From: an uncultured Bacteroidota bacterium
GTDB taxonomy: Bacteria; Bacteroidota; Bacteroidia; Chitinophagales; Saprospiraceae
Length of the DNA: 34,283 nucleotides
Direction of reading: 5' to 3'
NCBI GenBank assembly: GCA_903933805.1
Contig: CAIZLM010000049.1
Location: forward strand, 1 to 34,283
Shown here in pieces: positions 14,365 through 29,318 of the stretch. Within the stretch, counting starts at the first letter, position 1. Every line of letters begins with the position of its first letter. The notes beneath the pieces are model-generated. The model was not told where the DNA came from, made no database searches, and worked only from the letters and a program-made list of their open reading frames with translations. A program made the translations under genes and the position numbers.

Positions 14365-14441
14365 GCAACTGGTTGGTGGTCGCGTCTGAGACAAAAAAAT
14401 GGGCTTTTTTGGACCAGACAGCGTGCCAACTAACCAGTTGC
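14365..14441 (-). repeat. Family A element, short form, upstream of gmhA
   Basis: This 77 bp imperfect palindrome has GCAACTGGTT and AACCAGTTGC ends. The inner GTCTGAGAC and A/T tracts flank GGGC, a variant of the TGGCCA core. The ends read GCAAC/GTTGC instead of GTAAC/GTTAC on both sides, a paired change that keeps the stem. Its forward sense is on the minus strand, the same as gmhA. Confidence 0.9.
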
Positions 14442-14499
14442 AAATTTTATTAAGCTAGCATCTTGCTGCCATGTCAAAAATGTTTGCGAAACTTGCACC

Positions 14500-15030
14500 A
14501 TGATGATAGAAACTGAACGTCTATGGCTGGTTGTTGCCGATTTGCCCAAACTGGAGGCCATTGTTTCGGAAGACCAAGATACGCTTTCCAGCCTGCTTGG
14601 AGGGGTAGATATTGCGTCGCAATGGTTGCATTTTCCGGAGGCCATGGTTTGGATGCGCGATTATTTGCGGGAAAGTGAAGCGGAGTTGGGGTGGTGGAAC
14701 TATTTAATCATTCACCGACAGGCAGGTAAGCTCATCGGTTCAGGTGGTTTTAAGGGGCCGCCTTCGTACAACGGGGAGGTAGAGATAGGCTACGAGATAG
14801 CGCCGGCGTATCAGGGGCAGGGATTGGCCACAGAGGCGGCGCGCGCGTTGGTTGAATATGCCTTCAACAATACCGCTGTTCGGTGTGTGATGGCCAACAC
14901 CTTGGCCGAGGAAAACGCATCAAACCATTTGCTGTACAAGATTGGATTTGAATGGATGGGAGAAGAAGAAGATTTGGAGGAGACAAAATTTTGGGTTTTT
15001 CGCCAATTAAAAATTGGCGAAAAACCCTGA
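14500..15030 (+). CDS. GNAT family N-acetyltransferase (RimJ/RimL-like)
   Basis: This 176-residue protein matches the GNAT fold used to transfer acetyl from acetyl-CoA to an amine. It opens with TERLWLVVAD, has the core strand GKLIGSGGFKGPP, the beta-4 strand GEVEIGYEIAPAYQGQG leading into the pyrophosphate loop Q-G-Q-G-L-A-T-E-A (about 104-114), and the closing ENASNHLLYKIGFEWMG, all typical of the Acetyltransf_3 branch. The acceptor is unknown. The last codons are made from a perfect 16 bp inverted repeat (14993-15027) that includes the sequence up to the stop. It is divergent from gmhA, with the family A repeat between them, and convergent with the acyl-CoA dehydrogenase gene. Confidence 0.85.
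   Translation: MMIETERLWLVVADLPKLEAIVSEDQDTLSSLLGGVDIASQWLHFPEAMVWMRDYLRESEAELGWWNYLIIHRQAGKLIGSGGFKGPPSYNGEVEIGYEIAPAYQGQGLATEAARALVEYAFNNTAVRCVMANTLAEENASNHLLYKIGFEWMGEEEDLEETKFWVFRQLKIGEKP
14993..15027. repeat. Perfect 35 nt palindrome at the 3' end of the GNAT gene
   Basis: GGGTTTTTCGCCAATT (14993-15008) and its exact complement (15012-15027) are separated by AAA. The arms encode the last residues of the acetyltransferase and end just before the TGA stop. It could act as a bidirectional terminator between convergent genes, although there is no T-run after the stem. Confidence 0.85.
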
Positions 15031-15044
15031 TTTAAGACACATAA

Positions 15045-15093
15045 CCTAGTGCAGCGTCCAGTTAATGGGCCATTGACTGTACACGGCACTAGG
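15045..15093. repeat. Family B palindromic element, short form
   Basis: This is a 49 bp imperfect palindrome with ends CCTAGTGCAGCGTCCAGT and ACTGTACACGGCACTAGG and a TGGGCCA centre. The same ends border the 165 bp unit at 27859-28023. It overlaps the stop codon of the acyl-CoA dehydrogenase (15089-15091) and may also serve as a terminator. Confidence 0.8.
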
Positions 15094-16249
15094 CGTTGGC
15101 CACGTACAACTCTCCCAGCAGCACATTGCGGGAAATGACGATCCGTTGGACTTCCGAAGTGCCTTCATAGATTTGGGTGATTTTAGCATCCCGCATGAGT
15201 CGCTCCACGTGGTATTCTTTTACAAACCCATATCCGCCGTGTATCTGCACGGCTTCCACGGAATGTTTCATAGCAGCATCTGAGGCAAAAAGCTTGGCCA
15301 TGGCAGCAGCCTGGTCATAATTGAGTTTTTGGTCTTTCAGGTGTGCGGCTCGGTGCACCAACAGGCGTGCGGCTTCTATGTCAGTGGCCATATCAGCAAT
15401 CTTGAAAGCGATGGCTTGGTGTTGGCTGATGGGTTTTCCGAATGCGGTGCGTTCCTTGGCATAGGCAACCGACAACTCATATGCTCCTGCAGCGATGCCC
15501 AACGCCTGAGCAGCGATACCAATGCGGCCTCCTGAAAGGGTTTTCATGGCAAATTTGAATCCAAATCCGTCTTCGCCGATCCTGTTTTCCTTGGGGACCT
15601 TCACATCGGAGTACATGATAGAGGTTGTATCAGAGGAACGAATGCCCAATTTATCTTCTTTCGCACCGATGGCGACGCCGGCAGAATCGGCTTCCACGAT
15701 GAGGCAGTTGATACCTTTATGCGCCTTATCCGGATAGGTTTGAGCCATCACCAAGTGCACTTTTGACGTAGCGCCATTGGTGATCCAATTCTTGGTACCA
15801 TTGAGCAAATAGTGGTCTCCCATGTCAACAGCAGTTGTGCGCTGGCTGGTGGCATCACTGCCGGCTTCCGGTTCTGAGAGGCAGAACGAACCGATCCATT
15901 CTCCCGTTACGAGTTTGGGCAGGTACTTGCGTTTTTGTGCTTCCGTACCGTAGGTTTCGATACCCCAGCAAATCAACGAATTGTTGACCGACATGATCAC
16001 AGAACAGGAGTTGTCAACCTTTGAAATCTCCTCCATGGCCAGCACATAAGCAAGGGAGTCCATGCCGCCGCCGCCGTATTCCGGGGATACCATCATGCCG
16101 AGGAAACCGAGTTCCCCCATCATTTTGACTTGTTCCGTCGGGTAAATACCCTTTGAGTCGCGTTCGATGACGCCGGGTTTGAGTTCGTTTTGTGCGAAAT
16201 GCCGTGCGGCTTGTTGCACAGCCAAATGTTCTTCGGTTAGGTGAAACAT
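15089..16249 (-). CDS. Acyl-CoA dehydrogenase (short-chain/butyryl type)
   Basis: This 386-residue flavoenzyme catalyses alpha,beta-dehydrogenation of an acyl-CoA in beta-oxidation, passing electrons to electron-transfer flavoprotein. Visible signatures are FCLSEPEAGSDA (about 127-138), GTKNWITNG, the FAD-contact GYGFVKEYHVERLMRDAKI, and the catalytic base Glu362 in QIYEGTSE. The position of the glutamate and the length are those of the butyryl/short-chain branch; exact chain-length preference cannot be read. The ATG at 16249 gives the standard FHLTEEH N-terminus. Its final codons and stop lie inside a family B palindrome, so the C-terminal ANA may derive from that insertion. No ETF genes are adjacent. 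Confidence 0.93.
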   Translation of the reverse strand: MFHLTEEHLAVQQAARHFAQNELKPGVIERDSKGIYPTEQVKMMGELGFLGMMVSPEYGGGGMDSLAYVLAMEEISKVDNSCSVIMSVNNSLICWGIETYGTEAQKRKYLPKLVTGEWIGSFCLSEPEAGSDATSQRTTAVDMGDHYLLNGTKNWITNGATSKVHLVMAQTYPDKAHKGINCLIVEADSAGVAIGAKEDKLGIRSSDTTSIMYSDVKVPKENRIGEDGFGFKFAMKTLSGGRIGIAAQALGIAAGAYELSVAYAKERTAFGKPISQHQAIAFKIADMATDIEAARLLVHRAAHLKDQKLNYDQAAAMAKLFASDAAMKHSVEAVQIHGGYGFVKEYHVERLMRDAKITQIYEGTSEVQRIVISRNVLLGELYVANA

Positions 16250-16292
16250 ACAATGGTGGTGGTTGTGGTGATAATGGTACTATCTGGTAAAT

Positions 16293-16320
16293 TGTAACCA
16301 ATGAGGTGGCACGCTGCTTG
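16293..16320 (+). repeat. Family A half-copy
   Basis: GTAAC, six altered bases, then AGGTGGCACGCTG match the left arm of family A. The core and the right arm are missing. It lies 43 bp upstream of the acyl-CoA dehydrogenase start, in the opposite orientation. Confidence 0.5.
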
Positions 16321-16352
16321 CTTGAAACGGCCTAATTCCCGCAAATTCGCAA

Positions 16353-17180
16353 TTATTCAACAACATGCGCTTCAACAGCCTGCAGGACAACCTTATCCGG
16401 AATTCCGGTGCGGTGTACGTATGCCACAACAGCGCAGTGCTTGTCGTTCCATGTTTCGGGCAACACCACGCTAAACGTCTTGCTGATCAGGGCTCCACTC
16501 ACCAAGGCTTCCGGAATGGTATTGCCGTTGGGTTGGGTGACTACATCGCGCAGCACATGTCGGTGAACATAGTTTTTAACAATGACACTGTGAACATTTT
16601 GCACGTCAACAATACTGTCCTCCGTGATGACCACGGTGAGTCCAAAGGCGCCGGTAAGAGTTTCTCCAGGCGCAATATTGACCCGAATATCCAGTTGGCG
16701 GGAAAGGGCGTTATATTCTTTGACGAGGTAAAGTCCGAGCGCATAGTCTTTGCCAAACTCGGCTGTAATAAGCCCTGGCCACTCTGATGGCGGTGCAACA
16801 AAAAGTGATGTGGCATTGGGTGGTGAAAATCGCGCGATGGCGGCGCAAGGCGCGGCTTCAAATGGGCCAACAAAATCTGCCAGTGCCTTGCCATCGGTGG
16901 TGCGGAAATCGTAAAGACTGCCATTTGCGCCGGCGTAGGGCACTGAAAAGTCTGGGGCCGCGTGATTGGAAACCACGATCAGGTTCTCCTCGCCATACGT
17001 TTCTTGTAGGCCCACCAACAGATCTGTGCCATCGGGACAATTGGAGCATTTGACGCCCGTCAGCTCCTCCACCAACACCTTTCGTGCGCCAACGGATAGT
17101 TCCGGAATTACAAGGTCTTTTTCTGCGCAGCCCCAGAGGCTGATGGCAATCAGTGCAAGAAATGGAAGTCTGTTTTTCAT
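16353..17180 (-). CDS. Omp28-related lipoprotein with thioredoxin-like CxxC motif
   Basis: This 275-residue envelope lipoprotein has a signal peptide with lipobox SLWGC (Cys18). Residues 36-50 read LVEELTGVKCSNCPD, with a CxxC pair (Cys45, Cys48) placed as in thioredoxin-like folds and in the Omp28 family of Bacteroidota outer-membrane proteins. The C-terminal half is a beta-sandwich-like region (VNIAPGETLTGAFGLTVVIT). It may bind or reduce a partner in the periplasm, but no function is established from sequence. It lies 33 bp after the DUF6029 barrel gene on the same strand, so the two are very likely one operon and may form an envelope complex. Confidence 0.85.
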   Translation of the reverse strand: MKNRLPFLALIAISLWGCAEKDLVIPELSVGARKVLVEELTGVKCSNCPDGTDLLVGLQETYGEENLIVVSNHAAPDFSVPYAGANGSLYDFRTTDGKALADFVGPFEAAPCAAIARFSPPNATSLFVAPPSEWPGLITAEFGKDYALGLYLVKEYNALSRQLDIRVNIAPGETLTGAFGLTVVITEDSIVDVQNVHSVIVKNYVHRHVLRDVVTQPNGNTIPEALVSGALISKTFSVVLPETWNDKHCAVVAYVHRTGIPDKVVLQAVEAHVVE

Positions 17181-17213
17181 GGTAATACGTAATTTTTCGC
17201 GTATATTTTCGCG

Positions 17214-18851
17214 TTAGAAAGAAGAATTGACTTGCAATTTAACCCCTGAAAAGGCAGGTTCGAATCGGCAAATACCCCCGGCGCAATTGATACCTTCCAC
17301 CTGTTTCACCCAGGCCAATCCAATCCTGTTGGCTTGGTGGGTATAACTGATTTGAATTGTCGGGAAATGCAGGCCATCGTATTTCAATTTTTCGGGCGCC
17401 ACATCGTTTGTGTCTTGGTGTTCAAGTTTGTACATATCGGAAACTGCAATGAGCCAATGTGGAGCCATACCAAACTCTACCACAGCATTCAACCACGAAC
17501 CGAATTCCTGTTCTGTTTTGAGGTATTGTGCTTCTACCCGAACAGATTTTCTGGACGAAAATTTGTATAAAAATTCTGCGTAAGGTGTGGTAGCGTCCAC
17601 GTAAGTGCCTTTGCCTTGGTACACGAAAATGTTGTAGCGCAGCAGTTGCAGGCCGCCGGTGAATTGCCAAATACGTTTGTGTTTCCAGGTAAATTCCGGC
17701 GTTATTTCCCGATAAAGTTCTGTGCCATCGGGGAATTGAATGTCTGAAAAGTTGATACCCACCGCCAGTTTTTTGTTTACCTTATAGTGAACATCCACTT
17801 GGATGGCTTGTTCATCAATTTCCTGCGTAGCCGGGCTGAACCGTGTCGTCAGGCGGTACGTATTTTGTTTTGCCATGGGTGGCAGGAAGTTGATGGGGCC
17901 TTGTACGCCGAGTGCAAAAGGGTTCTGACGGAAAGCAAAATTGTTGGTGCGTTTGAGCTCCAACGTGACACCCAAGCCCTTTTGGGAATAGGCCAAACTG
18001 CTGTACAAGGAATGACCTTTGCGGTTCTCAACTTTTCCGGGCACGCCTCTAACGTTTACCGCGTTGGGGTCGTTGATCACATCGTATGATTTCAGCGCGC
18101 CCTCCACATACCAAATAAACCGGCCGGCGGTAAGGGTATTGTACACCGTTGCAGCGTAGGTATTGTACTGAGCCCCGGTACTGTCTTGTGGCGCATACGT
18201 GGCAATGGTATTGACAATTTGGTCCACCGTTTCTTTGGCGTACGTGCGTCCTACAACCCCGACCCCTGGAGCGAGCGTGATGTTTTTAATGGAGTCAGGC
18301 TTGATAAACCCCTCCAATACGGCCCCACGGATGACGGTGTTGTACAGGTTGAATTGCTGCTTTTGGCGGCCGGTGAAACCTTTTATCTTCCAGTTTTCAT
18401 TCAGGGCATAGCTTGCTTTTACCCCCAACAACGCATTGTCAATCATCAACGCACGCTCTTCATAGGCGCGGTAGATCATCCCCGAGCCAATTTGATCGTA
18501 TAAATAGCCGCCTTCCAGTTCTAATTTTCCGACTTTTTTGCGGATAAACCAACGGCCAATTCCCTGATTGGTGTACGAATCACTGGGATTCAACAAGTTG
18601 GAATTGTTGAACATGTCAAATCGCATACCCAAATCAAAGCCCCATTTGGAGTAATTGAGGTTGAGCCAACTTTCGGCGCCAAATTTTTGGTAGTCATACT
18701 GGGGGATCCCCGAGCCAACGCGTTTGTCATCTGAGATGAAAAAATTCGCGTTTGTCTGAAGCCCGCCGGTGATGGGGCTGTTCTGATCCTGTGCCTCTGC
18801 GGCGATACCCGTGAGCAGTGACAATAAAGTTAGCAGTAGCTGTTTTTTCAT
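17214..18851 (-). CDS. DUF6029 family outer-membrane beta-barrel protein
   Basis: This 545-residue exported protein has a signal peptide (MKKQLLLTLLSLLTGIAAEA). The rest is a succession of alternating amphipathic strands with aromatic girdles (SWLNLNYSKWGFDLGMRFDMF, KVGKLELEGGYLYDQIGSG) and ends in a strand finishing with Phe, as outer-membrane barrels do. It fits the DUF6029 family. It may display ligands or transport a small substrate, but neither is shown. Downstream comes the Omp28-type lipoprotein, a pairing that suggests a shared task. A TACCTTTG promoter box lies 25 nt before the ATG. Confidence 0.8.
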   Translation of the reverse strand: MKKQLLLTLLSLLTGIAAEAQDQNSPITGGLQTNANFFISDDKRVGSGIPQYDYQKFGAESWLNLNYSKWGFDLGMRFDMFNNSNLLNPSDSYTNQGIGRWFIRKKVGKLELEGGYLYDQIGSGMIYRAYEERALMIDNALLGVKASYALNENWKIKGFTGRQKQQFNLYNTVIRGAVLEGFIKPDSIKNITLAPGVGVVGRTYAKETVDQIVNTIATYAPQDSTGAQYNTYAATVYNTLTAGRFIWYVEGALKSYDVINDPNAVNVRGVPGKVENRKGHSLYSSLAYSQKGLGVTLELKRTNNFAFRQNPFALGVQGPINFLPPMAKQNTYRLTTRFSPATQEIDEQAIQVDVHYKVNKKLAVGINFSDIQFPDGTELYREITPEFTWKHKRIWQFTGGLQLLRYNIFVYQGKGTYVDATTPYAEFLYKFSSRKSVRVEAQYLKTEQEFGSWLNAVVEFGMAPHWLIAVSDMYKLEHQDTNDVAPEKLKYDGLHFPTIQISYTHQANRIGLAWVKQVEGINCAGGICRFEPAFSGVKLQVNSSF

Positions 18852-18876
18852 GTAGAAAACTTTACAAAGTGCGTGG

Positions 18877-18884
18877 CAAAGGTA
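18877..18884 (-). promoter_or_regulatory. Candidate -7 promoter box for the DUF6029-Omp28 operon
   Basis: On the minus strand this reads TACCTTTG, an exact TAnnTTTG match, 25 nt before the ATG at 18851. The rest of the 355 bp gap up to 19206 holds element C and a small hairpin at 19024-19042 (TTTACGG/CCGTAAA). Confidence 0.5.
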
Positions 18885-19051
18885 GAATCCCCTGGATTGT
18901 TCTCACGCATTTGTCGCTTTGATTTAGTCGTAGGCAGTCAAAACAAACAAAGCAGTGGTAACAGCAGTAAAATTGAGCTAAAAAAGCCCCAAAAAGAAAT
19001 AGTGGTGTAAACACAGGGTACTATTTACGGACGGACCGTAAACATCAAGCC

Positions 19052-19192
19052 TACTGGTACTGCGTCAAGTCGGTGACAGCACCAAAGAGCGGTCCGTTTT
19101 TCCTTTTCAGAATTGCTCTTCGGTTATCAGGTCTCGCCTTGGCAAAAGGAACCTTGTCTGCCCCAATATCATATCGTGACGCAGTACCAGTA
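19052..19192. repeat. Element C: 141 bp unit with 16 bp perfect inverted ends
   Basis: TACTGGTACTGCGTCA at 19052-19067 is the exact reverse complement of 19177-19192. The 109 bp between shows no gene and no extended pairing. This is the layout of a miniature inverted-repeat element. No second copy was seen in the window. Confidence 0.7.
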
Positions 19193-19206
19193 TCGAAAGG
19201 TTGTTG

Positions 19207-19830
19207 TTATTTTCCCAACATGCCACCCAGCAGGTTGCCCAGCATATCACCGGCAGAAGGCTGTGCTTGATTTTGGTTGCCACCCATCACTTGTCCCAGG
19301 ATGGAACCGATCAGGTCTCCCATGCCGGTTTGTTGTTGTGCTTGTTGTGCAGAGCCCATCAAAACGCCTGCAAGTCCGCCCAAATCGAGTCCGCCAGAAC
19401 TTTTAGCTTTCCCCAAAGCACTCATGACAAGCGGCGCGAGAATCGGCATCAGCTTCATGACCTGACCCATATTTAACCCGGAGGATTGTCCGATTTGTTC
19501 GGCTGCGGCCTCTTGGCGGTCGCCGAGCACGTGCCCGAGAATGCCAGATCCATTGGCGGCTTTAGAAAGGCCATCGCCGCCTTGCATCAGACCACCAACC
19601 ATGCCGAGTACATCGTCGATGATACTGCCATCATGGTCGCGATCCAGGGCTGCGCTGAGCGCAGAAAGCCCGCCTTCAGATGTGGCATTGTTGGCCAATC
19701 CGCCCAGCAATGTGGCGAAAATTCCGTTGGCGGCCTGCGTTGTTTGTTCAGGCGATGCGCCGACATGATCACTGAGTTGTCCCACCATATCGGGCGAAAG
19801 CTGGCCCTGCAGCATGCTTAAGATATCCAT
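19207..19830 (-). CDS. DUF937 domain protein
   Basis: This 207-residue protein starts MDILSMLQGQLSPDMVGQL and shows the DUF937 pattern of small helical repeats with Gly/Leu/Met-rich turns (ANGIFATLLGGLAN, GILGHVLGDRQEAAAEQIG, LMPILAPLVMSALGK). The last 60 residues are rich in Gly, Gln and Met, ending DMLGNLLGGMLGK. There is no signal peptide or catalytic signature. DUF937 proteins are widespread in Bacteroidota and Proteobacteria without an established function. The gene stands alone, with element C starting 15 bp past its stop. Confidence 0.8.
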   Translation of the reverse strand: MDILSMLQGQLSPDMVGQLSDHVGASPEQTTQAANGIFATLLGGLANNATSEGGLSALSAALDRDHDGSIIDDVLGMVGGLMQGGDGLSKAANGSGILGHVLGDRQEAAAEQIGQSSGLNMGQVMKLMPILAPLVMSALGKAKSSGGLDLGGLAGVLMGSAQQAQQQTGMGDLIGSILGQVMGGNQNQAQPSAGDMLGNLLGGMLGK

Positions 19831-20083
19831 AATCGTAAGTTTGTTTTTAAACTGAAAGAGGTGATTGTTGTTTGAAAAGAAAAAACGCCATTATATAAGG
19901 TGCAATATTAGAAACAAGTTTGTAAAAAATGCTGTTCAAGCTGTTTCATTGGGCTCAAACGGGGCCAAAAATTTAAAATCTGATAAAATATTGTTGATCA
20001 CCCCGTTTATTTTTGGGAAAAGCCGCAATTTTGGGCGGTCGTGCATTTAAAATAACGCCGCTCAGCATCCGCAAGCGGCACAG

Positions 20084-20695
20084 ATGAGCGAATTTCGAAG
20101 CGCAATGGATTACCAGGCTGCAAAACAATTTATCCTCACCAAACTCCGCAACGAGCTGTCTGTACAGCTCCGGTATCATGGCGTGCGCCACACCCTGGAT
20201 GTTCTCAAAATGGCTTCGGAAATTGCTGCGCAGGAAGGTATCAAAGGGCACAACCTCCAGCTTGTCAAAACAGCGGCACTTTACCACGATGCCGGGTTTG
20301 TGAAAAACAAACACGCAGGCCATGAATTGGAAGGCTGCCTGATGGTACAAGCCATCTTGCCCACGTTTGGATATTCCCCCTCCGATGTGGAAACAATCTG
20401 CGGCATGATCATGGCCACTAAAATACCACAGTCGCCCACCAATTTACTCGAGGAAATCCTCTGTGATGCAGACCTTGACTACCTCGGTCGCGACGATTTT
20501 TTTAGCATTGGCAACACGCTTTTTGAAGAACTGCAGGCCTACCACTTACTCCAAGGCGAACAAGCGTGGAATCGACTACAGGTCAGTTTCCTCTCTACCC
20601 ACCGGTTTCACACAAGCACAAACATCGCCATCCGAGAACCCGTCAAATTGCGCTACCTCCATGATCTCAAAGCTCTGATAGCAACCTATGCTTGA
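20084..20695 (+). CDS. HD domain phosphohydrolase
   Basis: This 203-residue protein carries the HD-superfamily metal-binding set: His36 (GVRHT), His68-Asp69 (LYHDAGF), further His residues in KHAGHELEG, and the late Asp in LCDADLDYLG. Such proteins hydrolyse phosphate esters of nucleotides, sometimes cyclic or alarmone nucleotides; the substrate cannot be told here. The ATG at 20105 (MDYQAAK) is an alternative start. It lies upstream of mutY on the same strand, with a family A repeat in the 99 bp between them. Confidence 0.82.
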   Translation: MSEFRSAMDYQAAKQFILTKLRNELSVQLRYHGVRHTLDVLKMASEIAAQEGIKGHNLQLVKTAALYHDAGFVKNKHAGHELEGCLMVQAILPTFGYSPSDVETICGMIMATKIPQSPTNLLEEILCDADLDYLGRDDFFSIGNTLFEELQAYHLLQGEQAWNRLQVSFLSTHRFHTSTNIAIREPVKLRYLHDLKALIATYA

Positions 20696-20701
20696 TATTT
20701 T

Positions 20702-20777
20702 GTAACTGGTTGGGTGGCACGCCATCTGGCAAAAAATAGCGATTTTTTGTCTCAGCCGCGACTACCTAACCAGATGC
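20702..20777 (+). repeat. Family A element, short form, upstream of mutY
   Basis: GTAACTGGTTGGGTGGCACG begins the left arm, followed by GGCAAAAAATAGCGATTTTTTGTCTCAG-type core sequence and CTAACCAGATGC at the right end. It ends 17 nt before the mutY ATG and is in forward sense relative to it. Confidence 0.9.
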
Positions 20778-20794
20778 GATATTTTACCTCTTCC

Positions 20795-21880
20795 ATGAAC
20801 AACGCAACACACTTTTTCCGCCGCCATCTCTTTGAATGGGCTGCCGCAAATCCACGGCCCATGCCGTGGAAAGGAGAAAAAGATCCGTATAAAATTTGGC
20901 TTTCAGAGATCATCCTCCAACAAACCCGGGTGGAGCAGGGTTGGCCATATTTTGAAAAATTTGTCGCGCATTACCCCCATGTGCGCGCCCTGGCAGACGC
21001 CCCGGAAGACGACGTGTTAAAACTCTGGGAGGGACTGGGGTATTATACCCGTGCCCGAAACCTACACGCAGCCGCCAAGCACATAGCCTATGAACTGGGC
21101 GGCATCTTTCCCAATACCTTTGACGCCCTGCTGGCGCTGCGTGGGGTGGGGGACTACACCGCCGCAGCCATTGCTTCTTTCGCCTACAACCTCCCACATG
21201 CCGTGCTTGATGGCAACGTCTACCGCGTTTTGGCCCGTTATTTTGCCATAGAAACACCCACGGACTTGCCGGTCGCAAAAAAACAATTTTCTGCCCTGGC
21301 CCATGAAATGCTCGATCCTGTGCACCCCGCGGCTTTCAACCAGGCGATGATGGATTTTGGCGCCACTTGCTGCACGCCCTCCCAACCCGGCTGTGGTGGA
21401 TGCCCCTTGCGACCCGAATGTGCTGCCGCCTGCAGCAATAGGGTGGGGGAATTCCCTGTCAGGATCAAGAAGATGGAAAAGAAAAAACGCTTCTTTATGT
21501 ATGTAGTGATCAGACATGGGGAACAAACCTGGTTGCGCAAACGCGCTTCCAATGATATCTGGCGGGGCTTGTATGAGTTCCCCATGTTGGAAGTAGCACA
21601 ATTGGCGGAACTCCACACCAGGTCCATCGAGCAGGTTTTGTGGCCCGACGGACTGCCGCCAGCAGCCAAATGGGGCAACACCTCAGAATATTATCGGCAT
21701 ATTCTCACCCACCAAGACATCGAAGCAGCGTTTATCGAATTACATTTGCCCTTGGGAACAGACCCTGCGTTCTTTCGCCTACCATGGCTCGAAGGAAGTT
21801 TTGAAGTGCCATATCTGGAAGCCAAAAAAAAATTCGCCTTTCCGCGATTGATTGTTCGTTTTTTTGATAAAAATGTTTAA
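20795..21880 (+). CDS. mutY: A/G-specific adenine DNA glycosylase
   Basis: This 361-residue base-excision repair enzyme removes adenine mispaired with 8-oxoguanine. It has the MutY catalytic Glu38 in SEIILQQTRVEQ, a helix-hairpin-helix LRGVGDYTAAAI (115-126), catalytic Asp139 in VLDGNVYRV, and the 4Fe-4S ligands Cys193, Cys200, Cys203 and Cys209 (C-x6-C-x2-C-x5-C). The C-terminal 130 residues correspond to the NUDIX-like 8-oxoG recognition domain. The frame is open upstream to 20714, but those codons lie in a family A repeat, and MNNATHFF at 20795 gives the usual N-terminus. It is followed by ssb and gldE, an order common in Bacteroidota. Confidence 0.95.
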   Translation: MNNATHFFRRHLFEWAAANPRPMPWKGEKDPYKIWLSEIILQQTRVEQGWPYFEKFVAHYPHVRALADAPEDDVLKLWEGLGYYTRARNLHAAAKHIAYELGGIFPNTFDALLALRGVGDYTAAAIASFAYNLPHAVLDGNVYRVLARYFAIETPTDLPVAKKQFSALAHEMLDPVHPAAFNQAMMDFGATCCTPSQPGCGGCPLRPECAAACSNRVGEFPVRIKKMEKKKRFFMYVVIRHGEQTWLRKRASNDIWRGLYEFPMLEVAQLAELHTRSIEQVLWPDGLPPAAKWGNTSEYYRHILTHQDIEAAFIELHLPLGTDPAFFRLPWLEGSFEVPYLEAKKKFAFPRLIVRFFDKNV

Positions 21881-21963
21881 CTTTACATTGCGTTCATTCA
21901 AAAAGCGCCTAAAAACAACTTTCACTATTTTTTTCACGCTTCTTAAACTTTATTTTTTTCAAC

Positions 21964-22407
21964 ATGATCAACAAAGTAACCCTTATTGGAAACCTCGGCG
22001 CTGATCCAGAGGTACGCCACTTGGACAATGGAACAGCCGTCGGCCGCTTTTCTCTTGCCACCAATGAAAACTACCGAGACAAAGATGGCAACTGGCAAAA
22101 AATCACCGAGTGGCACAACGTCACCGTTTGGCGTGAGTTGGCAGAACGCGCCGAAAAACAACTCAAGAAAGGCATGATGGTCTTTGTGGAAGGCAAAATT
22201 TCCTACCGCAAATACACCGACAAGGAAGGTGTGGAACGCACCAGCACCGACATTGTCGCCAACACCCTTCGCTCGCTCGAACGCAGTGAAAATACCGGTG
22301 AAAGCCGTTTCACGACCGGTGAAAATGTGACGGTCGGTAATGGCCGAGAAACAACGACGACTGCTCCACAGCATCAAGTTGCTGAAGGCGACGATTTGCC
22401 GTTCTAA
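21964..22407 (+). CDS. ssb: Single-stranded DNA-binding protein
   Basis: This 147-residue SSB coats single-stranded DNA in replication and repair. The OB fold is clear: MINKVTLIGNLGADPEVRH, GRFSLATNENYRDKDGNW, TEWHNVTVW and GMMVFVEGKISYRKYTD. The disordered tail ends in the acidic tip DDLPF, which recruits partner proteins. Length is a little below the E. coli type and typical for Bacteroidota. It lies 83 bp after mutY and is followed by its own hairpin terminator. Confidence 0.95.
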   Translation: MINKVTLIGNLGADPEVRHLDNGTAVGRFSLATNENYRDKDGNWQKITEWHNVTVWRELAERAEKQLKKGMMVFVEGKISYRKYTDKEGVERTSTDIVANTLRSLERSENTGESRFTTGENVTVGNGRETTTTAPQHQVAEGDDLPF

Positions 22408-22417
22408 ATACCTCATA

Positions 22418-22460
22418 AAAAGGGTAAGAAGCGCCTTTCTTGGCCCTTCTTACCTTTTTT
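22418..22460 (+). terminator. Intrinsic terminator after ssb
   Basis: AAAAGGGTAAGAAG (22418-22431) pairs with CTTCTTACCTTTT (22446-22458), and the right arm runs into a six-T tract. The next family A repeat begins at the very next base (22461). Confidence 0.8.
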
Positions 22461-22537
22461 GTAATTGGTTGGGTGGCACGATGTCGGGCAAAAAATGGCC
22501 ACTTTTTTGTCTCAGACGACACCACCCAACCAGTTAC
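22461..22537 (+). repeat. Family A element, short form, upstream of gldE
   Basis: GTAATTGGTTGGGTGGCACG starts the left arm. The core AAAAAATGGCCACTTTTTTG and GTCTCAGACG follow, and it closes with CCCAACCAGTTAC. It ends 16 nt before the gldE ATG, in forward sense, directly abutting the ssb terminator. Confidence 0.92.
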
Positions 22538-22553
22538 CCTTTTTTATCCCGCT

Positions 22554-23813
22554 ATGATGCTCCTCCTTTTCTTCGGACTACTCTTATATACACTCGTGTT
22601 GCGCTCAGAACAGGCACTGATGCGGTTATCTGCCCACGACCTCGATCTGTTGCGCGCCAATGAACACCGAGCTGCTGTTAGGGTGATACGTCTGACGGAA
22701 CAACTCCGCGCTACCATGGCCGCCTTGGTACTCGCTAGGATTTTGCTCGCCTTGCTCATTGGGGTAGGTTGTATCAATAGCCTCTTGACCAACTATTGGT
22801 TTAAAACGACTCTTTTTGACTTCTCTGCGGATCATAATTTATCAGGGTCGCTCGTTTGGGGCAGTGTCGGCATTGTACTTACAGCAGGCACAACCTTTCT
22901 GCTTTGGACTTTGCAGAAAATGCACCTGCTAAAAAATAATAACAGCAATGGCTCATTGCCGTTACAACGGCTGGGACTTTTTGTGTCATTTTGGAAATTT
23001 CTTTTTTCACCGTTTATCTACCCCGGGAAAAAGTCAACAATCGACCTTGTGGCTGCTGGATCGGCTACTGATCCTGTCCTCAGCAATGCTGCAAACAGTG
23101 AAAAACGGGAACTGGAATTGCTCAAAAGCATTGTTCAATTTGGCGATGTTACCATTAAGCAGGTGATGCAGCCCCGTTCAAAAGTCGTGGCGGTGGATTT
23201 TCGCGCCACTTTCGCGGAACTGCTCAACATCGTGTGCGTAAATGAATTCTCCCGAATGCCCGTGATCGATGAAGACCTCGACAATGTAATGGGTATTCTC
23301 TACGTCAAGGACCTCGTGCCCCACCTCGACAAGCCGGCTGATTTCGAATGGCAACCACTCATTCGTACCAACCTCATGCTGGTGCCTGAGAGCAAACGCG
23401 GCAGTGAGCTCTTACAGGAGTTTAAACAGGAAAAGATGCACATGGCGGTGGTTGTAGACGAGTACGGTGGCTCTGCGGGCATCGTTACGCTGGAAGACAT
23501 ACTAGAAGAGGTTATCGGCGATATCCGCGACGAGTTTGATGAAGACAGTGATATCCGCTACCGGAAATTGGACGACAACAACTACCTGTTTGAAGGGCAG
23601 GTACTACTCAACGATGTGTGTCGTATCACCGGGTTGCCCGGCAATGCTTTCGATACCGTTCGCGGCAATTCAGACACATTGGCCGGCCTGGCCCTCGAAC
23701 TGCGCGGCGATATCCCTCCTGTGGGCGAAGAAATAGCGTGGGGGCAGTTCTTGCTCACGGTGATAGCCGCCAACAGCCGTAAAATTGAGCAATTAAAATT
23801 TACTTGCTGCTAA
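22554..23813 (+). CDS. gldE: GldE-type membrane protein with CBS pair and CorC/HlyC domain
   Basis: This 419-residue inner-membrane protein has the CorC/HlyC layout: three to four hydrophobic helices in the first 170 residues (DUF21-like), a linker with KRELELLKSIVQFGDVTIKQ-type sequence, two CBS motifs (VMQPRSKVVAVD onward, and MAVVVDEYGGSAGIVTLEDILEEVIGDI), and a C-terminal CorC_HlyC module (YRKLDDNNYLFEGQV, VGEEIAWGQFLLTVI). In Bacteroidota this protein next to mutY and ssb is GldE, linked to gliding and type IX secretion through GldD; otherwise it would be called a hemolysin-type transporter. The open frame extends upstream into a family A repeat, so the start was placed at MMLLLF. The usual neighbour gldD is absent, replaced by a YfhO gene. 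Confidence 0.85.
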   Translation: MMLLLFFGLLLYTLVLRSEQALMRLSAHDLDLLRANEHRAAVRVIRLTEQLRATMAALVLARILLALLIGVGCINSLLTNYWFKTTLFDFSADHNLSGSLVWGSVGIVLTAGTTFLLWTLQKMHLLKNNNSNGSLPLQRLGLFVSFWKFLFSPFIYPGKKSTIDLVAAGSATDPVLSNAANSEKRELELLKSIVQFGDVTIKQVMQPRSKVVAVDFRATFAELLNIVCVNEFSRMPVIDEDLDNVMGILYVKDLVPHLDKPADFEWQPLIRTNLMLVPESKRGSELLQEFKQEKMHMAVVVDEYGGSAGIVTLEDILEEVIGDIRDEFDEDSDIRYRKLDDNNYLFEGQVLLNDVCRITGLPGNAFDTVRGNSDTLAGLALELRGDIPPVGEEIAWGQFLLTVIAANSRKIEQLKFTCC

Positions 23814-23862
23814 CGGGTTTTTGAATATCTGCTGTTGCGCCAATTCAATGACGTGTGTTTCT

Positions 23863-23870
23863 TATATTTG
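23863..23870 (+). promoter_or_regulatory. -7 promoter box of the first YfhO gene
   Basis: The sequence TTTCTTATATTTGCC (with the TATATTTG octamer) lies 28 nt before the GTG start. It is repeated almost exactly before the second YfhO gene (29361-29368), so the promoter appears to have been duplicated with the gene. Confidence 0.6.
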
Positions 23871-23898
23871 CCGAGTACCAAAATTTCAACTATAGACC

Positions 23899-26379
23899 GT
23901 GGCTAAAAACGCACACAAAAAAGTTGCTTCAGCTCCAAAGCCGGCACCCTACTCCAATCTGACGTTTCCTGAAATACCTTGGCTGGCATGGGTCAACAAA
24001 CACGGTTCGCTGTTGTACCTCATAACAGCAAGTGCAATGTTGCTGTTTCTCTTCCGTGATTACCTTTTTGGGTCGCTGTTGTATTTGTTTGACGACGTAG
24101 GAAGCGACACAATTAACGTGTTTTATCCATCACTGAAACACGTGGCGGCCTACCTGCGCGAAGAAGGTTTGCCAGCATGGTCATTCCGACAGGGAATTGG
24201 TCAAAATATTTATCCGGGTAGTATTTCAGATGTTTTTAACTACCCACTTTATGCGTTGGGTTCAGAGAAACTGGTTTACGGAATAGCCTGGATCGAATGT
24301 TTCAAGCTTTTGTTGGGCGGTTGGCTTTTCACCCGTTATTTGAAAATGATGGCATTGGAAGGTTATGTTGCCATGATTGGTGGGCTACTGTTCGCTTTTT
24401 CAGGGTATGCCATGATAGGAAGTGGATGGTATATATTTTCCGGTAATCTCACACATTTTGCCTTGCTTTTATTGGGCTTTGAGCTGTATTACCAACGCAA
24501 ACAATGGTGGCTTTTTCCGCTGGCAGTGGGTCTTTTGGCTGCCGTTCAGGTCGTTTTAGCTTATTTTTATCTTGTCTTTTTAGCCATATATTTTCTTTGG
24601 CGTTATTTTACGTCGGGTAGGGAGCGGAGTTGGAGTGATATTGTACAGTTATCAGGGGTACTGATTGCTTTGGCGCTCTTGGGTTTCGCGCTGACATTGC
24701 CCATTTGGTTGCCTGCACTCAAAGAAATGTTGGACAGTCCGCGTGCGACCGTATCGAGTTTGTCGGACAAGCTTCGGTCTTTTCCGATGTTTGGCTTTGA
24801 CAATGCGGTAAATACTTCTTTGCTTGCCCTGCGTACATTTTCCAACAACCTCAACATCTCGGCTACCAATTTCAAACTTAACTACCTGGAGGCGCCGATG
24901 AATTACTGCGGCCTGCTGTGTTTGTTGTTGTTGCCGCAGGTATTTGTGGGTCTTGGGAAGCGCGACCGCATTGCTTATGGCGGGCTATTTGTCGTGTTTT
25001 TCATAACGCAGATTTTTCCTTATTTTAGGTACGCTTTTTGGTTATTTTCAGGTAATTACCACCGTAATCTATCCCATTTGTTTGGCATGGTGGTGCAGTT
25101 GTTGGCCCTGCTCGCCTTATTCAAAATGGTAAAGAACAAGAAGATCAATGTGTTGTTGTTGGTTATTACCTTGATTGGGTTGTTGGGGATCTTGTATTAT
25201 CCTTGGAAGGTGAAGGCTGCTCCCGAACCACAGTTTCTGGTGGCTTGCTTCTTGGTGTTGGAGGCCGTTTTAGTTTATTTGGCGATTCGGCCAGGTGGGC
25301 GGCATCTCGCATTGGCGGCATTGCCGGTTGTTTTGGTTGTCGAGCTGGTCTTTTCCGCTTGGCCGGTTATACACGATCGTTTTGCCATCACAAAAACACA
25401 ATGGGAAACGGATTATTACCAGGAACCCAATACGCTATCGGCCATTCATTGGATCCAGTCACAAGACTCCAGTTTTTACCGCATTATGAAGCCGGTGGGT
25501 TCGGGATCAAAGCGCTACAACAGCCTCAACGACGCCAAAGTCCAAAATTATTATGGTATGACCTCCTACCATTCGTTTAACCACCCCGGACTCATCAACC
25601 TACTGGTTGGAACGGGTGTTGTTGATACCAATTCTACCAGAAGAGATACGTTGGAGGGAGATACGCGATGGGCCATCGGCATTGGAAATGACCTGTTTTT
25701 GCAAACAATTACCAATTGCAAATATATTGTCAACAATAAGCCGCACTACAAGCAAGGAGCATTTATAAAATCGATCATGGACTCCCTTACATGCTTCGGC
25801 GACCAACGCGTCCTGCGGCTGAAGCTGGCCCTGCCGCTTGGCGTAGCGTATGAACATTATATGACCGAGAGCGAGGCATTAAAACTACGACCTCGCATAA
25901 ACAGACAATTGTCTATGATGAAGGTCGGTATTGTCAGGCAGGAGTTTGTGCCCCTGCTTGCTGGACTCAAAGCAGTGGTATCCGATTCCATTCCAGCGCC
26001 CGACAAATACACAATAGATATGATTTATGTCGATGTTGCAGCGCGACAAGTGGATACTTTTCGGGTTGACAAATTCAGCCAAAACCACATCACAGGCCAT
26101 ATTGACCTTAAAAAGAGGAAACTACTTTTTTTTAATATTCCGAATGATGAAGGGTGGCATATTACGGTGAATGGTCAACCGACAGAGCCGATTTTGGTCA
26201 ATTATGCTTTCATTGGACTTCCCTTGGACGCCGGGAGTCACATTATTGAGATGGTTTATCAGGTTCCTTTTTTGAAGACAGCAGAAATAGTAAGTTTGTG
26301 TGCAGGAATATTGTTTTTCTTGCTCATTTGTTTAAGTTTAGTGTTGAGCGCAAGAAAAAAATCCACGATCAAAGAATAA
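23899..26379 (+). CDS. YfhO-family multi-spanning membrane protein, copy 1
   Basis: This 826-residue protein has about twelve hydrophobic helices in its first 480 residues and a soluble C-terminal region of about 300 residues, followed by one last helix. This matches the YfhO family of GT-C-like enzymes, which add sugars to lipid-linked or cell-surface glycans in some bacteria. A conserved acidic loop follows the first helices (FDDVGSDTIN, about 64-73). The start is GTG in an identical setting in both copies (ACCGTGGC). Copy 2 at 29398 is nearly identical over the central and C-terminal parts but differs in the region of about 70-210 and in the last 60 residues. It takes the place usually held by gldD after gldE. 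The exact sugar transferred is unknown. Confidence 0.82.
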   Translation: MAKNAHKKVASAPKPAPYSNLTFPEIPWLAWVNKHGSLLYLITASAMLLFLFRDYLFGSLLYLFDDVGSDTINVFYPSLKHVAAYLREEGLPAWSFRQGIGQNIYPGSISDVFNYPLYALGSEKLVYGIAWIECFKLLLGGWLFTRYLKMMALEGYVAMIGGLLFAFSGYAMIGSGWYIFSGNLTHFALLLLGFELYYQRKQWWLFPLAVGLLAAVQVVLAYFYLVFLAIYFLWRYFTSGRERSWSDIVQLSGVLIALALLGFALTLPIWLPALKEMLDSPRATVSSLSDKLRSFPMFGFDNAVNTSLLALRTFSNNLNISATNFKLNYLEAPMNYCGLLCLLLLPQVFVGLGKRDRIAYGGLFVVFFITQIFPYFRYAFWLFSGNYHRNLSHLFGMVVQLLALLALFKMVKNKKINVLLLVITLIGLLGILYYPWKVKAAPEPQFLVACFLVLEAVLVYLAIRPGGRHLALAALPVVLVVELVFSAWPVIHDRFAITKTQWETDYYQEPNTLSAIHWIQSQDSSFYRIMKPVGSGSKRYNSLNDAKVQNYYGMTSYHSFNHPGLINLLVGTGVVDTNSTRRDTLEGDTRWAIGIGNDLFLQTITNCKYIVNNKPHYKQGAFIKSIMDSLTCFGDQRVLRLKLALPLGVAYEHYMTESEALKLRPRINRQLSMMKVGIVRQEFVPLLAGLKAVVSDSIPAPDKYTIDMIYVDVAARQVDTFRVDKFSQNHITGHIDLKKRKLLFFNIPNDEGWHITVNGQPTEPILVNYAFIGLPLDAGSHIIEMVYQVPFLKTAEIVSLCAGILFFLLICLSLVLSARKKSTIKE

Positions 26380-26385
26380 AATTTA

Positions 26386-26549
26386 GTAATTGGTTAGGTG
26401 GCACGCTGTCTGGCCCAAAAAGGCCCATTTTCGCCCATACTTCGCAGTTTTTTTGACCATAGCGCTGCTACGGCCTGCAAAAAAAATCGCTTCGTCTGGC
26501 AAAAAATGGCCACTTTTTTGTCTCAGAGGCGACCACGCTAACCAGTTAC
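26386..26549 (+). repeat. Family A element, long form, upstream of the GT2 gene
   Basis: This 164 bp unit has GTAATTGGTTAGGTGG and GCTAACCAGTTAC ends and an inner hairpin (CGCAGTTTTTTTGACC ... GCGCTGCTACGG ... TGCAAAAAAAATCGC). It is the inverted counterpart of 14-176. It begins 6 bp after the stop of the first YfhO gene and ends 37 nt before the glycosyltransferase ATG. Confidence 0.9.
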
Positions 26550-26586
26550 TTAATTTATTTCATCTCATAGTTCCAATTTTTCAGGC

Positions 26587-27531
26587 ATGGATAGTGACAA
26601 AAAAACACACATTTCAATTGTTTCTCCTGTTTACAAAGCGGAGAATATCGTTGAAGAATTAGTTGATAAAATCAAACAATCAGTATCTACACTTACCGAT
26701 AATTTTGAAATAATTCTAGTAAACGACTGTTCTCCGGATAATTCTTGGGCTAAAATACTTCAAGAATCTGAAAAAGATAGGCGCGTAAAAGGAATTAATT
26801 TAAGTCGCAACTTTGGACAGCATTTTGCTATTACAGCTGGCTTATATTATGTGAAAGGAGATTGGATAGTAGTTATGGATTGCGACTTGCAGGACAGACC
26901 AGATGAAATACAAAATTTGTATAAAAAAGCTCAAGAAGGTTGGGATATTGTTTATGCACGTAGAATTAAAAGAAAAGATAAATTATTAAAACGAATGTCT
27001 TCAATTATTTTTAATTGGGTTTATGTTTATCTTAGTGGTATTGAAAGGGATAAAAGTATTGCAAATTTCGGTATATATCATGCTAAAGTAATTGTTGAAT
27101 ACAATAAGATGAAAGAGTTAGCGCGTTCTTTTCCCTCGTTGATCCAGTATCTGGGTTTTAAATCATGCGCGATTGATGTTAAGCACTCAGAACGTTTTGA
27201 CGGTTCTTCATCTTATAATTTATCTAAACTTTTGTATCTTTCAGGTGATGTTATTTTATCTAATAGCAATAAGCCTTTGAAAATGACAATTAAGCTAGGG
27301 TTTTTTATATCATTTTTTTCGTTTTTTATATCAATTTATAATATTGGTGCTTATTATTTTGGCTTTATTAAAGTGGCGGGGTTTACTACGACTGTTTTTT
27401 CAATCTGGTTTGTTGGCGGTTTAATATTGACTGTACTAGGGATTTTAGGTTTATATATAGGTAAAATATTTAATGAAGTAAAAGGCAGACAACTATTTAT
27501 AGTTTCAGGTGAAATAAATATTGAGAAATGA
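26587..27531 (+). CDS. Family 2 glycosyltransferase with C-terminal membrane helices (GtrB/DPM-like)
   Basis: This 314-residue enzyme would transfer a sugar from a nucleotide donor to a polyprenyl phosphate carrier at the inner membrane. It has the GT2 opening ISIVSPVYKAENIVEELV, VNDCSPDNSW (46-55), the metal-binding MDCDLQDRPDEI (97-108), SRNFGQHFAITAGL, and two C-terminal membrane helices (about 237-260 and 270-296), as in undecaprenyl-phosphate sugar transferases. Its base composition is clearly more AT-rich than all its neighbours, with many AAA, ATT and TTA codons, suggesting recent transfer. It stands between two family A/YfhO blocks. A role in a lipid-linked precursor for the neighbouring YfhO proteins is inferred, not shown. 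Confidence 0.88.
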   Translation: MDSDKKTHISIVSPVYKAENIVEELVDKIKQSVSTLTDNFEIILVNDCSPDNSWAKILQESEKDRRVKGINLSRNFGQHFAITAGLYYVKGDWIVVMDCDLQDRPDEIQNLYKKAQEGWDIVYARRIKRKDKLLKRMSSIIFNWVYVYLSGIERDKSIANFGIYHAKVIVEYNKMKELARSFPSLIQYLGFKSCAIDVKHSERFDGSSSYNLSKLLYLSGDVILSNSNKPLKMTIKLGFFISFFSFFISIYNIGAYYFGFIKVAGFTTTVFSIWFVGGLILTVLGILGLYIGKIFNEVKGRQLFIVSGEINIEK

Positions 27532-28084
27532 AGTACACAGAAATTTGGGTTTTTCGTGACTTTATATGGGTTATTAAACAAGTAAAAACGTAAGCCTCCT
27601 ACCAAACCCATATTGCGTATCCGGTATCTTCAACCACTGCATGGCATAGCCAGTTTTATGCCAGTGTTTTCCAGACACACTTTTTGAGATATTACCGACA
27701 ATCAGAAGATAACACGTTAAAAGCCAAATATTTTTTTCGGCGTCTAAACCGGAAGGTTCGTAAAAATCTCTAAATTTGCGATAGTTCAGGATAAGCATAG
27801 ATTATCATGTCGTGAGAAAATACAAAAATCGGGCTTCCTACGTCTCTTATTAAATATGCCTAGTGTCGCGTCCAGTGAATGGCCCACGAATTGGGGAGGC
27901 AAATCTTTTCTTCATCAAGGCGTGAGGAGGGCGCAATACGGGATATTGTAACCGACGAACAACGCAGAGGAAGGAAAAATTGGACCGCCAAATCCATGGG
28001 CAATTGACTGGACACGGCACTAGTAGTATGCTGTGCGTATTGTGCAAAACCTGTTAGTCATTTACCAGTTACGTACTTTTTTTT
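27532..28084. other. Gene-free stretch of repeats and debris
   Basis: There is no convincing gene. A minus-strand frame (27798-27574, 74 codons, protein-like ending WLKIPDTQYGFGRRLTFLLV) has no recognisable family. It overlaps a piece related to the 39 bp repeat near 4.9 kb: GTAAGCCTCC followed by ACCCCATATTG-type sequence at about 27589-27616, inverted. A family B element fills 27859-28023. This looks like degraded insertion debris. Confidence 0.4.
27859..28023. repeat. Family B palindromic element, long form
   Basis: CCTAGTGTCGCGTCCAGT at the left mirrors ACTGGACACGGCACTAG at the right, with AATGGCCCA and TGGGCAAT continuing the pairing inward. The internal 110 bp shows no gene. The short copy at 15045-15093 has the same ends. 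The terminal TAGTGTC...GTCCA resembles the ends of the ISNCY element at 31995. Confidence 0.8.
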
Positions 28085-29212
28085 ATGCAAATTCCATTCA
28101 ATCGTCCATACCTCACCGGCAAGGAATTGCACTACCTCTATCAAGCGGTTCAGAACGGCCATCTCTCCGGCAACGGAATATTTACAAAGCATTGCCACTC
28201 ATTCTTTCAACAACAGTATGGTTATAAAAAGTGCTTATTGACAACATCGTGCACCGATGCACTTGAAATGACAGCGCTGTTAGCCGATATTCAATTGGGA
28301 GACGAGGTTATCATGCCATCTTTTACCTTCGTTTCAACAGCCAACGCTTTTGTTCTTAGAGGGGCTAAAATTGTCTTCGCTGACAGTCACCCTGATCAGC
28401 CAAATTTGGATGAAAGGTTGATTGAATCGCTTATTACCTCCCGCACAAAGGCAATTGTGGTGGTGCACTACGCCGGTGTGGCATGTAATATGACGCCAAT
28501 TCTCCAACTAGCAAGCCGTTACGGGTTAATCGTTATTGAAGATGCTGCCCAAGCGATTGATAGTTACTATGAAGGTAGAATCCTTGGCAGTATAGGTGAT
28601 ATGGCAGCCTTTTCTTTTCATGAAACTAAAAACTTACAGGCTGGGGAGGGCGGAATGCTCACGGTAAATAATGCTGATTTTGTCCACAGGTCAGAAATAT
28701 TGTGGGAAAAAGGAACCAACAGAACTGCGTTTTTTCGCGGTGAAGTTGATAAATACGGTTGGGTTGATATTGGAAGCTCTTTTTTGCCTTCAGAAATGGT
28801 GTCTGCGTTTCTTTTTGCCCAACTAGAACACCTGCAGGAGATTCAACAAAAAAGGCTTCATATTTGGCATCGGTATGCCAATGAACTGGCGCCACTCGCA
28901 GAAAAAGGCCACTTCCAATTGCCTGTTATTCCAAGTTATGCAAGCAACAATGCACACATGTTTTACTTAGTGCTCCCGTCTGAAATCATGCGCACTGTTT
29001 TAATCACTAAGCTGAAAGAAGCAGGCGTAAACGCTGTTTTTCACTACCAATCATTGCACAAATCTCCCTACTTTAATGACAAACATGATGGTAGGCAGTT
29101 GTTAAATAGCGATATATTCAGCGATTGTCTGTTAAGGCTACCTATATTTTTTGAATTAACAGAAATACAACAGTTGTATATAATAGATCAGATCAGTAGG
29201 GCTTATAAGTAG
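28085..29212 (+). CDS. wecE: dTDP-4-amino-4,6-dideoxygalactose transaminase
   Basis: This 375-residue PLP-dependent aminotransferase of the DegT/DnrJ/EryC1 group closely follows the WecE/RffA pattern, including GDEVIMPSFTFVSTANAFVL (72-91), VHYAGVACNM (127-136), VIEDAAQAID, the PLP-lysine segment FSFHETKN (Lys182) and EKGTNRTAFFRGEVDKYGWV. WecE makes dTDP-4-amino-4,6-dideoxy-D-galactose for surface glycans such as enterobacterial common antigen. One glycine of the family's GGEGG loop is replaced (QAGEGG), which is minor. It lies among glycan genes (GT2, YfhO) but no dTDP-sugar synthesis genes are in the window. The ATG at 28085 gives the expected N-terminus (MQIPFNRPYL). Confidence 0.9.
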   Translation: MQIPFNRPYLTGKELHYLYQAVQNGHLSGNGIFTKHCHSFFQQQYGYKKCLLTTSCTDALEMTALLADIQLGDEVIMPSFTFVSTANAFVLRGAKIVFADSHPDQPNLDERLIESLITSRTKAIVVVHYAGVACNMTPILQLASRYGLIVIEDAAQAIDSYYEGRILGSIGDMAAFSFHETKNLQAGEGGMLTVNNADFVHRSEILWEKGTNRTAFFRGEVDKYGWVDIGSSFLPSEMVSAFLFAQLEHLQEIQQKRLHIWHRYANELAPLAEKGHFQLPVIPSYASNNAHMFYLVLPSEIMRTVLITKLKEAGVNAVFHYQSLHKSPYFNDKHDGRQLLNSDIFSDCLLRLPIFFELTEIQQLYIIDQISRAYK

Positions 29213-29237
29213 GGGTCAATATTTGTTGTACGGGATT

Positions 29238-29318
29238 GTAACTTGTTAGGAGACACGCTGTCTAGTCAAAAAATGGCTACTTTTTTTACCTCAGATGCAG
29301 CCACCCAACCAGTTTTAC
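29238..29318 (+). repeat. Family A element, diverged short form, upstream of the second YfhO gene
   Basis: The left arm GTAACTTGTTAGGAGACACG and core CAAAAAATGGCTACTTTTTT are present. The right end CCCAACCAGTTTTAC has a two-base insertion. It lies 79 nt before the GTG start of the second YfhO gene, in forward sense. Confidence 0.85.

Follow-up and report, generated by a model that had tools for sequence, protein, structure and literature searches.

Why does one long palindrome recur ahead of gene after gene in a single bacterial contig? The stretch examined here, called the window throughout, is the full 34,283 nucleotides (nt) of contig CAIZLM010000049.1 (assembly GCA_903933805.1), from an uncultured bacterium of the Saprospiraceae (Bacteroidota). 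A preliminary description of it reported palindromes ahead of gmhA, mutY, gldE, a GT2 gene and the second of two YfhO genes, all in the same sense relative to the gene, and proposed a transcribed leader structure or a mobile regulatory element. Its mobile-element reading is the one upheld by hundreds of copies and 8-bp target duplications: judged from sequence, each palindrome represents one copy of a non-autonomous transposable element, specifically a miniature inverted-repeat transposable element (MITE). We consider it probable that this MITE relies on an IS66-type helper, spreads in its long form, carries a folded core that is under selection and has had its ends exchanged between transposase types.

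The recurrence of the palindrome arms is real. In the window, the 16-nt arm has 13 matches with at most 3 mismatches, compared with 0.26 expected from shuffled sequence; one of these, at 9902, lies within a gene and has the appearance of a chance match. Seven copies align end to end, the five short ones measuring 76-79 nt and the two long ones 163 and 164 nt. Counts for the host genome come from a sample of 60 stretches plus the window, covering 1,162,246 of 4,206,178 bases (27.6%). The sampled contigs are long ones known to hold copies, and the sample is therefore enriched, about 1.3-fold as judged by left arms (163 in the sample and 448 genome-wide at up to 3 mismatches). At a threshold of E<1e-4, profile searching found 305 elements in the sample and none in the reversed-sequence control, and scaling by left arms points to a host-genome total of about 840 copies. 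All but three of the sampled copies (302/305) are intergenic. A perfect 8-bp duplication flanks 62 of the 197 full-length copies, where 0.4 would be expected, and it is on this basis that the palindromes are classed as MITEs. Furthermore, the flanking 8-mers of these 197 copies have a mean identity of 0.71 versus 0.33 expected, the other lengths from 4 to 12 falling far behind, and duplications are better in copies closer to the consensus (rank correlation, 0.39). The 98 sites matching at 7/8 positions or more reveal an AT-rich target whose symmetry spans about 12 bp. Both forms of the element, 76-79 and 163 nt, are non-coding and end in 16-nt terminal inverted repeats that start GTAACTGGTTAG.

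Several features of the inserted copies were observed alongside. The stop codon of a called gene falls inside an element in 26 of the 305 cases, ending at nt 4 (GTAA) in 10 and at nt 12 in 3, so that the element itself supplies these stops. Adjacent copies about 8 bp apart always face the same direction (in the host-genome stretches L043, L023, L057, L042, L026, L034, L018 and L029, and in L129-L136). Pairs 6-10 nt apart are direct in 8/8 cases and those less than 30 nt apart in 15/15, compared with 116 direct and 90 inverted among neighbours more than 200 nt apart; exact junctions of two elements are direct in 6/6. The exceptions are two candidate head-to-head pairs, 3 and 5 nt apart, obtained with a looser tip search, and one inverted pair at 21 nt. 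Since side-by-side partners are unlike in form or decay, the second copy appears to have re-inserted into an old target. A different perfect palindrome, GTAACAGGTTGTAAGTGGTTGGG... followed by its reverse complement, lies directly after an element copy near position 9413 of L012.

The ends of the element point to IS66. Passages of one report give IS66 ends starting GTAA with 8-bp direct repeats (PMC11946415), and a passage of another describes one IS66 element with 8-nt repeats but a different tip (PMC10017437); the GTAA starts and the 8-bp repeats of the IS66 rule are both present in our element. Within the genus, 11 of 42 genomes contain loci matching PF03050. The congeners G009 and G025 have IS66-family elements whose ends read GTAACTGGTTAGCC, the former with a perfect 8-bp duplication and the latter with 6/8 positions matching, and in these two congeners the first 12 nt, GTAACTGGTTAG, are common to the IS66 elements and the MITE ends. 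The G009 element holds two repeated pairs of open reading frames resembling another insertion sequence, and the G025 element looks internally deleted. IS66 ends of a similar style are GTAACTATCCAG in host contig C180 and GTAAAAACTTAGCC in G007, the latter with several perfect duplications; the remaining IS66 loci have GTAAGCC ends or none that could be found. From these ends, we suggest that an IS66-family transposase moves the host-genome element in trans. Unlike IS66, the element has no transposase gene, and the core described below is absent from the IS66 elements examined, the sole strong match (L073, 967-1068) being MITE-like and outside the transposase reading frame. The search for an autonomous partner family in the host's own genome covered IS66. 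A search of the sample for a partner between two MITE ends gave two weak pairs and no transposon. An 874-nt stretch between outward-facing ends in L053 was dropped as a candidate because of the ordinary-looking gene inside it.

We looked for the arms and the long form in related genomes. When up to 3 mismatches were allowed, the 28-nt left arm was found in the host and in just one of the 59 other relatives searched, G025 (2 places), and an exact 28-nt scan of genome contigs, from which records near the host genome may be left out, returned one contig of a metagenome-assembled genome. With 1 mismatch allowed, the right arm turned up in the host and, among 395 other genomes of the order, in 3 at one place each, which is the level of the reversed-pattern controls. 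At the same stringency, 4 of 41 other genomes in the genus had the 16-nt arm, with 10 places in G014, which has a related element of its own. BLAST searches with the long form matched 9 of these 41 genomes. The match in G014 was full-length at about 70%, and those in G023, G008, G003, G012, G022, G063 and G031 covered the inner part only, with different ends wherever these were read. It was this confinement of matches to the inner part that revealed a shared core of about 96 nt. Seventeen cores from nine genomes could be aligned, and a model built from them (R2, whose structure includes just the 6-bp apical stem) found the core at E<=1e-4 in 94 of 398 genomes of the bacterial family, the host included, and in 40 of 112 genera, with at most 10 candidates scored per genome. 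In the host sample, the only core matches outside the window's element family (family A) had E values of 2.1 and 7.9, which is noise; a search for plasmid relatives of two elements gave none at E 0.01.

The same core is found between several kinds of ends. Among 105 core loci read, ends were assigned in 88 and in 17 none could be assigned; removal of repeats left 76 distinct elements of 153-167 nt, 71 of which measure 158-163 nt (the 167-nt element, L186, has a doubtful left end). Twenty-nine belong to a GTAA/GTTA class, with a perfect 8-bp duplication in 14 and at least 7/8 matching positions in 17 (1.0 expected). Forty belong to a TA class, with tips such as GACTTGTTG, AGTACC, CACTGTAAA, GACATTATTT, AGTAGTAAG and GTCTTGTTC; TA flanks both sides in 28 of the 40, one side in 11 and neither in 1, counts in which the TA may be taken as part of the ends, since these tips were set after the TA flanks had been noticed. 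The other seven form a GAAG class (G436, G539) in which the duplication is unclear. One genome, G003, carries both main classes. In having TA on both sides, the TA class resembles IS630/Tc1 elements and their MITEs, and IS630/Tc1-type transposases may move these relatives; it differs from them in carrying the core of the 8-bp class. In an IS630 search, 4 of the 15 genomes given matched PF13358. The tips of the G646 IS630 elements, TACACTGT and TAAGTA..TGGAC, are like two TA-class tips, and the IS630 ends in G223, G008 and G568 are unlike the MITE ends of the same genomes.

For the identity comparisons, 32 elements were picked by hand so that each end type and genome was represented roughly once. 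Between the 8-bp and TA classes, the cores had an identity of 0.60 (0.63 and 0.64 within classes), and identity of the 18-nt ends was 0.27-0.28 between classes, 0.35-0.61 within them and 0.28 in composition-matched random sequence. Each column carries about 1.2 bits of information in the core, a figure that drops to about 0.3 toward the outer arms. On a tree of the cores, explaining the 8-bp label takes 3 changes (bootstrap, 3-4) and explaining the TA label 5 (4-6), and the starred branches force just 1. Because only one change is forced and the test fails to reject one 8-bp clade (p-AU 0.109), the tree would require one exchange of ends between transposase types; several are only suggested.

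The core is predicted to fold into a structure in which 95.3% of alignment cells are paired and 14 of 21 pairs have changed on both sides. Its covariation score is 0.402, compared with 0.115 +- 0.013 in shuffles (0/500 as high) and at most 0.093 with slid partners, but the fold was derived from the same alignment and the rows are related, which inflates such counts. Core changes between families comprise 101 compensated, 24 broken, 8 wobble and 7 doubly changed and unpaired, and the same classes among the 92 long host-genome copies number 10, 135, 47 and 5. Compensation along the spreading lineage, together with decay of single insertions, argues for selection on the spread of the element and not on use by host genes, and we read the core in this way; it might act as a folded strand, be it a DNA hairpin, a cruciform or RNA. 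In the 12-nt tips of the 197 full copies, 18 paired changes stand against 312 one-sided ones; shuffles give an expectation of 10.4 paired changes (P=0.0135), and a single A/G site accounts for 8 of those observed. With one-sided changes predominating, the stem is in general not maintained once a copy has inserted, and the idea that paired arm changes preserve the stem, drawn from the copy ahead of gmhA, does not extend to the element as a rule. The mostly pair-breaking changes in tips and core thus rule out selection maintaining the stem in single copies.

The best-surviving alternative does without selection. Under it, the core is common by descent alone, its paired changes stem from palindrome-templated mutation and the ends drift or recombine. 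Palindromes can correct themselves without selection (quasipalindrome correction), and the slight excess of paired tip changes in the host genome would fit such a process. The same mechanism should act on the core of the host-genome copies, yet changes there mostly break pairs; in addition, predicted-unpaired columns near a CTTC motif are conserved across families, and core-less copies form no spreading lineage. We therefore regard this neutral account as possible but unlikely.

Short copies, which lack the core, make up 105 of the 197 full copies. They fall into four junction classes (34, 29, 15 and 14 copies, with 13 ambiguous), their left arms are more diverged than those of long copies (median, 7.7% versus 3.8%), and they do not cluster with one another (0.44 versus 0.53 expected). 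Several junctions, more diverged arms and the lack of a cluster of their own suggest that short copies probably arise by repeated internal deletion after insertion, the long form being the one that would spread.

Several points weigh against this combined picture of an IS66-mobilized MITE with a selected core and exchanged ends. None of the three IS66 loci (PF03050) in the host assembly has the ends of the MITE, the partner is missing from the host or unassembled, and the matches between MITE and IS66 ends span just about 12-14 nt. No genome was found with an IS630 element sharing the full ends of its own TA-class MITE, the likeness in G646 being one of tips only. To these are added the order in which the TA-class tips were set, the unrejected single 8-bp clade, and the lack of a core in over half of the full copies, whose later deletion we infer.

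On another reading, the core would be an RNA gene distantly related to Flavo-1 RNA (RF01705) that various MITEs carry along as cargo. Flavo-1 is likewise a hairpin with internal loops from Bacteroidetes and indifferent in sense, as far as the relevant passages of two sources go: one lists it as a probable RNA without a cis-regulatory role (PMC2864571), and in the other, a flavobacterial transcriptome, Flavo-1 matches lie indistinctly sense or antisense and many are untranscribed (PMC9723704). Matches over the whole Flavo-1 model occur in 3 of the 20 loci given, at 27.8, 25.3 and 21.8 bits. These stand well below the cut-off of 42 bits and the 62.2 bits of a genuine Flavo-1 locus, and unrelated microRNA hairpin models score equally, so the likeness is a lead only, and we hold the cargo reading to be improbable. 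Two Flavo-1 patterns were also sought in viral contigs: one had 0 matches and the other 3, all in the same gene-like stretch without an Rfam match. A full-strength Flavo-1 match lies outside Bacteroidota, at L266 1991-2067 in Paraclostridium bifermentans plasmid CP124692.1 (62.2 bits), and similar matches occur in four other Paraclostridium plasmids.

We now turn to the individual copies in the window, whose flanks were compared by eye. The two long copies are c1 (14-176, minus strand, 163 nt), between the 8-mers TCAAAAAC (6-13) and CCAAAAAC (177-184), which are alike at 7/8 positions, and c6 (26386-26549, plus strand), 5' of the GT2 gene with 8-mers alike at 6/8; core alignment places their cores at 45-140 (minus) and 26421-26516 (plus). 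Four short copies have identical 8-mers on both sides: c3 (14365-14441, minus) between gmhA and a GNAT gene, with AAATTTTA; c4 (20702-20777, plus) 5' of mutY, with GATATTTT; c5 (22461-22537, plus) 5' of gldE, with CCTTTTTT; and c7 (29238-29316, plus) 5' of the second YfhO gene, with ACGGGATT. The fifth, c2 (4016-4091, plus), is decayed, with flanking 8-mers 6/8 alike. The preliminary inventory counted seven copies and a half-copy; seven do align end to end, and c2 is no half-copy, since its degenerate right arm is readable by eye, the nhmmer alignment reaching model position 67 of 78. A possible left-arm relic at 16294-16316 (plus) falls below the profile-search threshold and is not among the 305 called elements. 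Profile matches bear out the gene names given earlier: mutY scores above its curated cut-off, the gmhA- and GldE-family matches fall just or well below theirs, and the YfhO and GT2 domain matches exceed the Pfam cut-offs.

It is these copies that gave rise to the reading of the palindrome as a transcribed 5' leader or regulatory hairpin recruited by genes in one orientation, to which five same-sense copies 5' of genes and long predicted hairpins lent support. The arms differ inside the ends, so the sense of each copy can be defined. The positions ahead of the five genes are as originally described; with our gene calls, four of the five copies lie 16-84 nt 5' of the start. Our start codons are not always those used before, and the start behind c7 is called 220 nt away, which puts c7 outside the leader count. 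The uniform sense of copies ahead of genes reflected an incomplete selection: the window has four same-sense and two opposite-sense placements, c2 lying 38 nt 5' of the start of a helicase gene and c3, in a divergent interval, also lying 59 nt 5' of the GNAT gene, both in opposite sense to the gene named.

The wider tabulation of distance and orientation used a home-made caller that gave 839 genes (86% coding) and whose start errors are harmless for the sense test because only the strand of the gene is needed; the interval tests omit 26 intergenic copies that lack a called gene on one side or both. Placements within 100 nt of a start agree with the gene in sense in 65 of 134 cases (95% confidence interval, 0.40-0.57), and those within 100 nt of a stop in 97 of 196. 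The same holds for 79/159 copies in co-directional intervals, and in divergent intervals 33/68 point toward the nearer start. Neither the fixed orientation nor the preference for 5' leaders proposed for the window is thus found genome-wide, only 52 of the 159 co-directional copies being nearer the downstream start than the upstream stop (P=1.5e-5). Copy density per kb is 3.6 in convergent, 2.4 in co-directional and 1.9 in divergent intervals. Lying nearer stops and being densest in convergent intervals, the copies fit insertion between genes with promoter regions avoided, not leader recruitment. Moreover, tip changes mostly break pairs, and an Rfam search of the window found no family at its cut-off. 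The genome-wide counts of sense and place rule out the leader as a rule, and as a general explanation we consider it very unlikely; genes have not recruited the copies that lie near them as leaders, though single copies could still serve a host gene.

REP-type palindromes moved by Y1 (RAYT) transposases are likewise numerous, intergenic and palindromic but scarcely credible here, as they make no target duplication, whereas the clear 8-bp duplications and terminal inverted repeats fit the mechanism of a DDE transposase.

Other repeats were seen in the window. Two direct repeats at 4883-4924 and 5053-5094 match the end of the host-genome IS66 element L072 (GTAAGCCTCCCACG...) and are probably remains of a second IS66-derived family. 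A further interspersed repeat occurs at 15050-15092, 27864-27906 and 27981-28023, with a similar stretch beside a copy in L129. The two YfhO-family genes (23899-26379 and 29392-31878) share stretches of 87-89% DNA identity and are apparently recent paralogues.

Like known bacterial MITEs such as the Correia elements and MITECca01 of Cardinium, in the account that parts of PMC10969869 give of them, the element is short, non-coding, bounded by inverted repeats, present in many copies and mostly intergenic. MITECca01 is described in part of another report as having 169 copies, amounting to 3.5% of the chromosome, in a single lineage (PMC9769881). In the passages concerned of these two sources, known bacterial MITEs are tied to one parental element, in contrast to the single core and several unrelated kinds of ends seen here. 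Listings of open-licence PMC papers turned up no bacterial MITE in which a single core is joined to several kinds of ends, and one may still be in print.

The case is a warning that neither a few neighbouring copies in the same sense nor covariation by itself is good evidence for a leader RNA. A broader proposition, which we take seriously without quite favouring it, is that the core is a helper-independent parasite module of elements of about 160 nt across the bacterial family, that its ends have switched between unrelated superfamilies (IS66-type with 8-bp duplications, IS630/Tc1-type with TA), that selection acts on the folded strand and not on the ends, and that motifs of Bacteroidota classed as RNAs without known function, Flavo-1 among them, may be of the same kind. 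The usual definition of a MITE rests on its ends, these being the part that the transposase binds; here the ends seem replaceable and the middle lasts, and the compensatory changes in the core speak for a selected fold. If the core aids spread under any transposase, small bacterial transposons would carry a working part of their own that can be tested directly.

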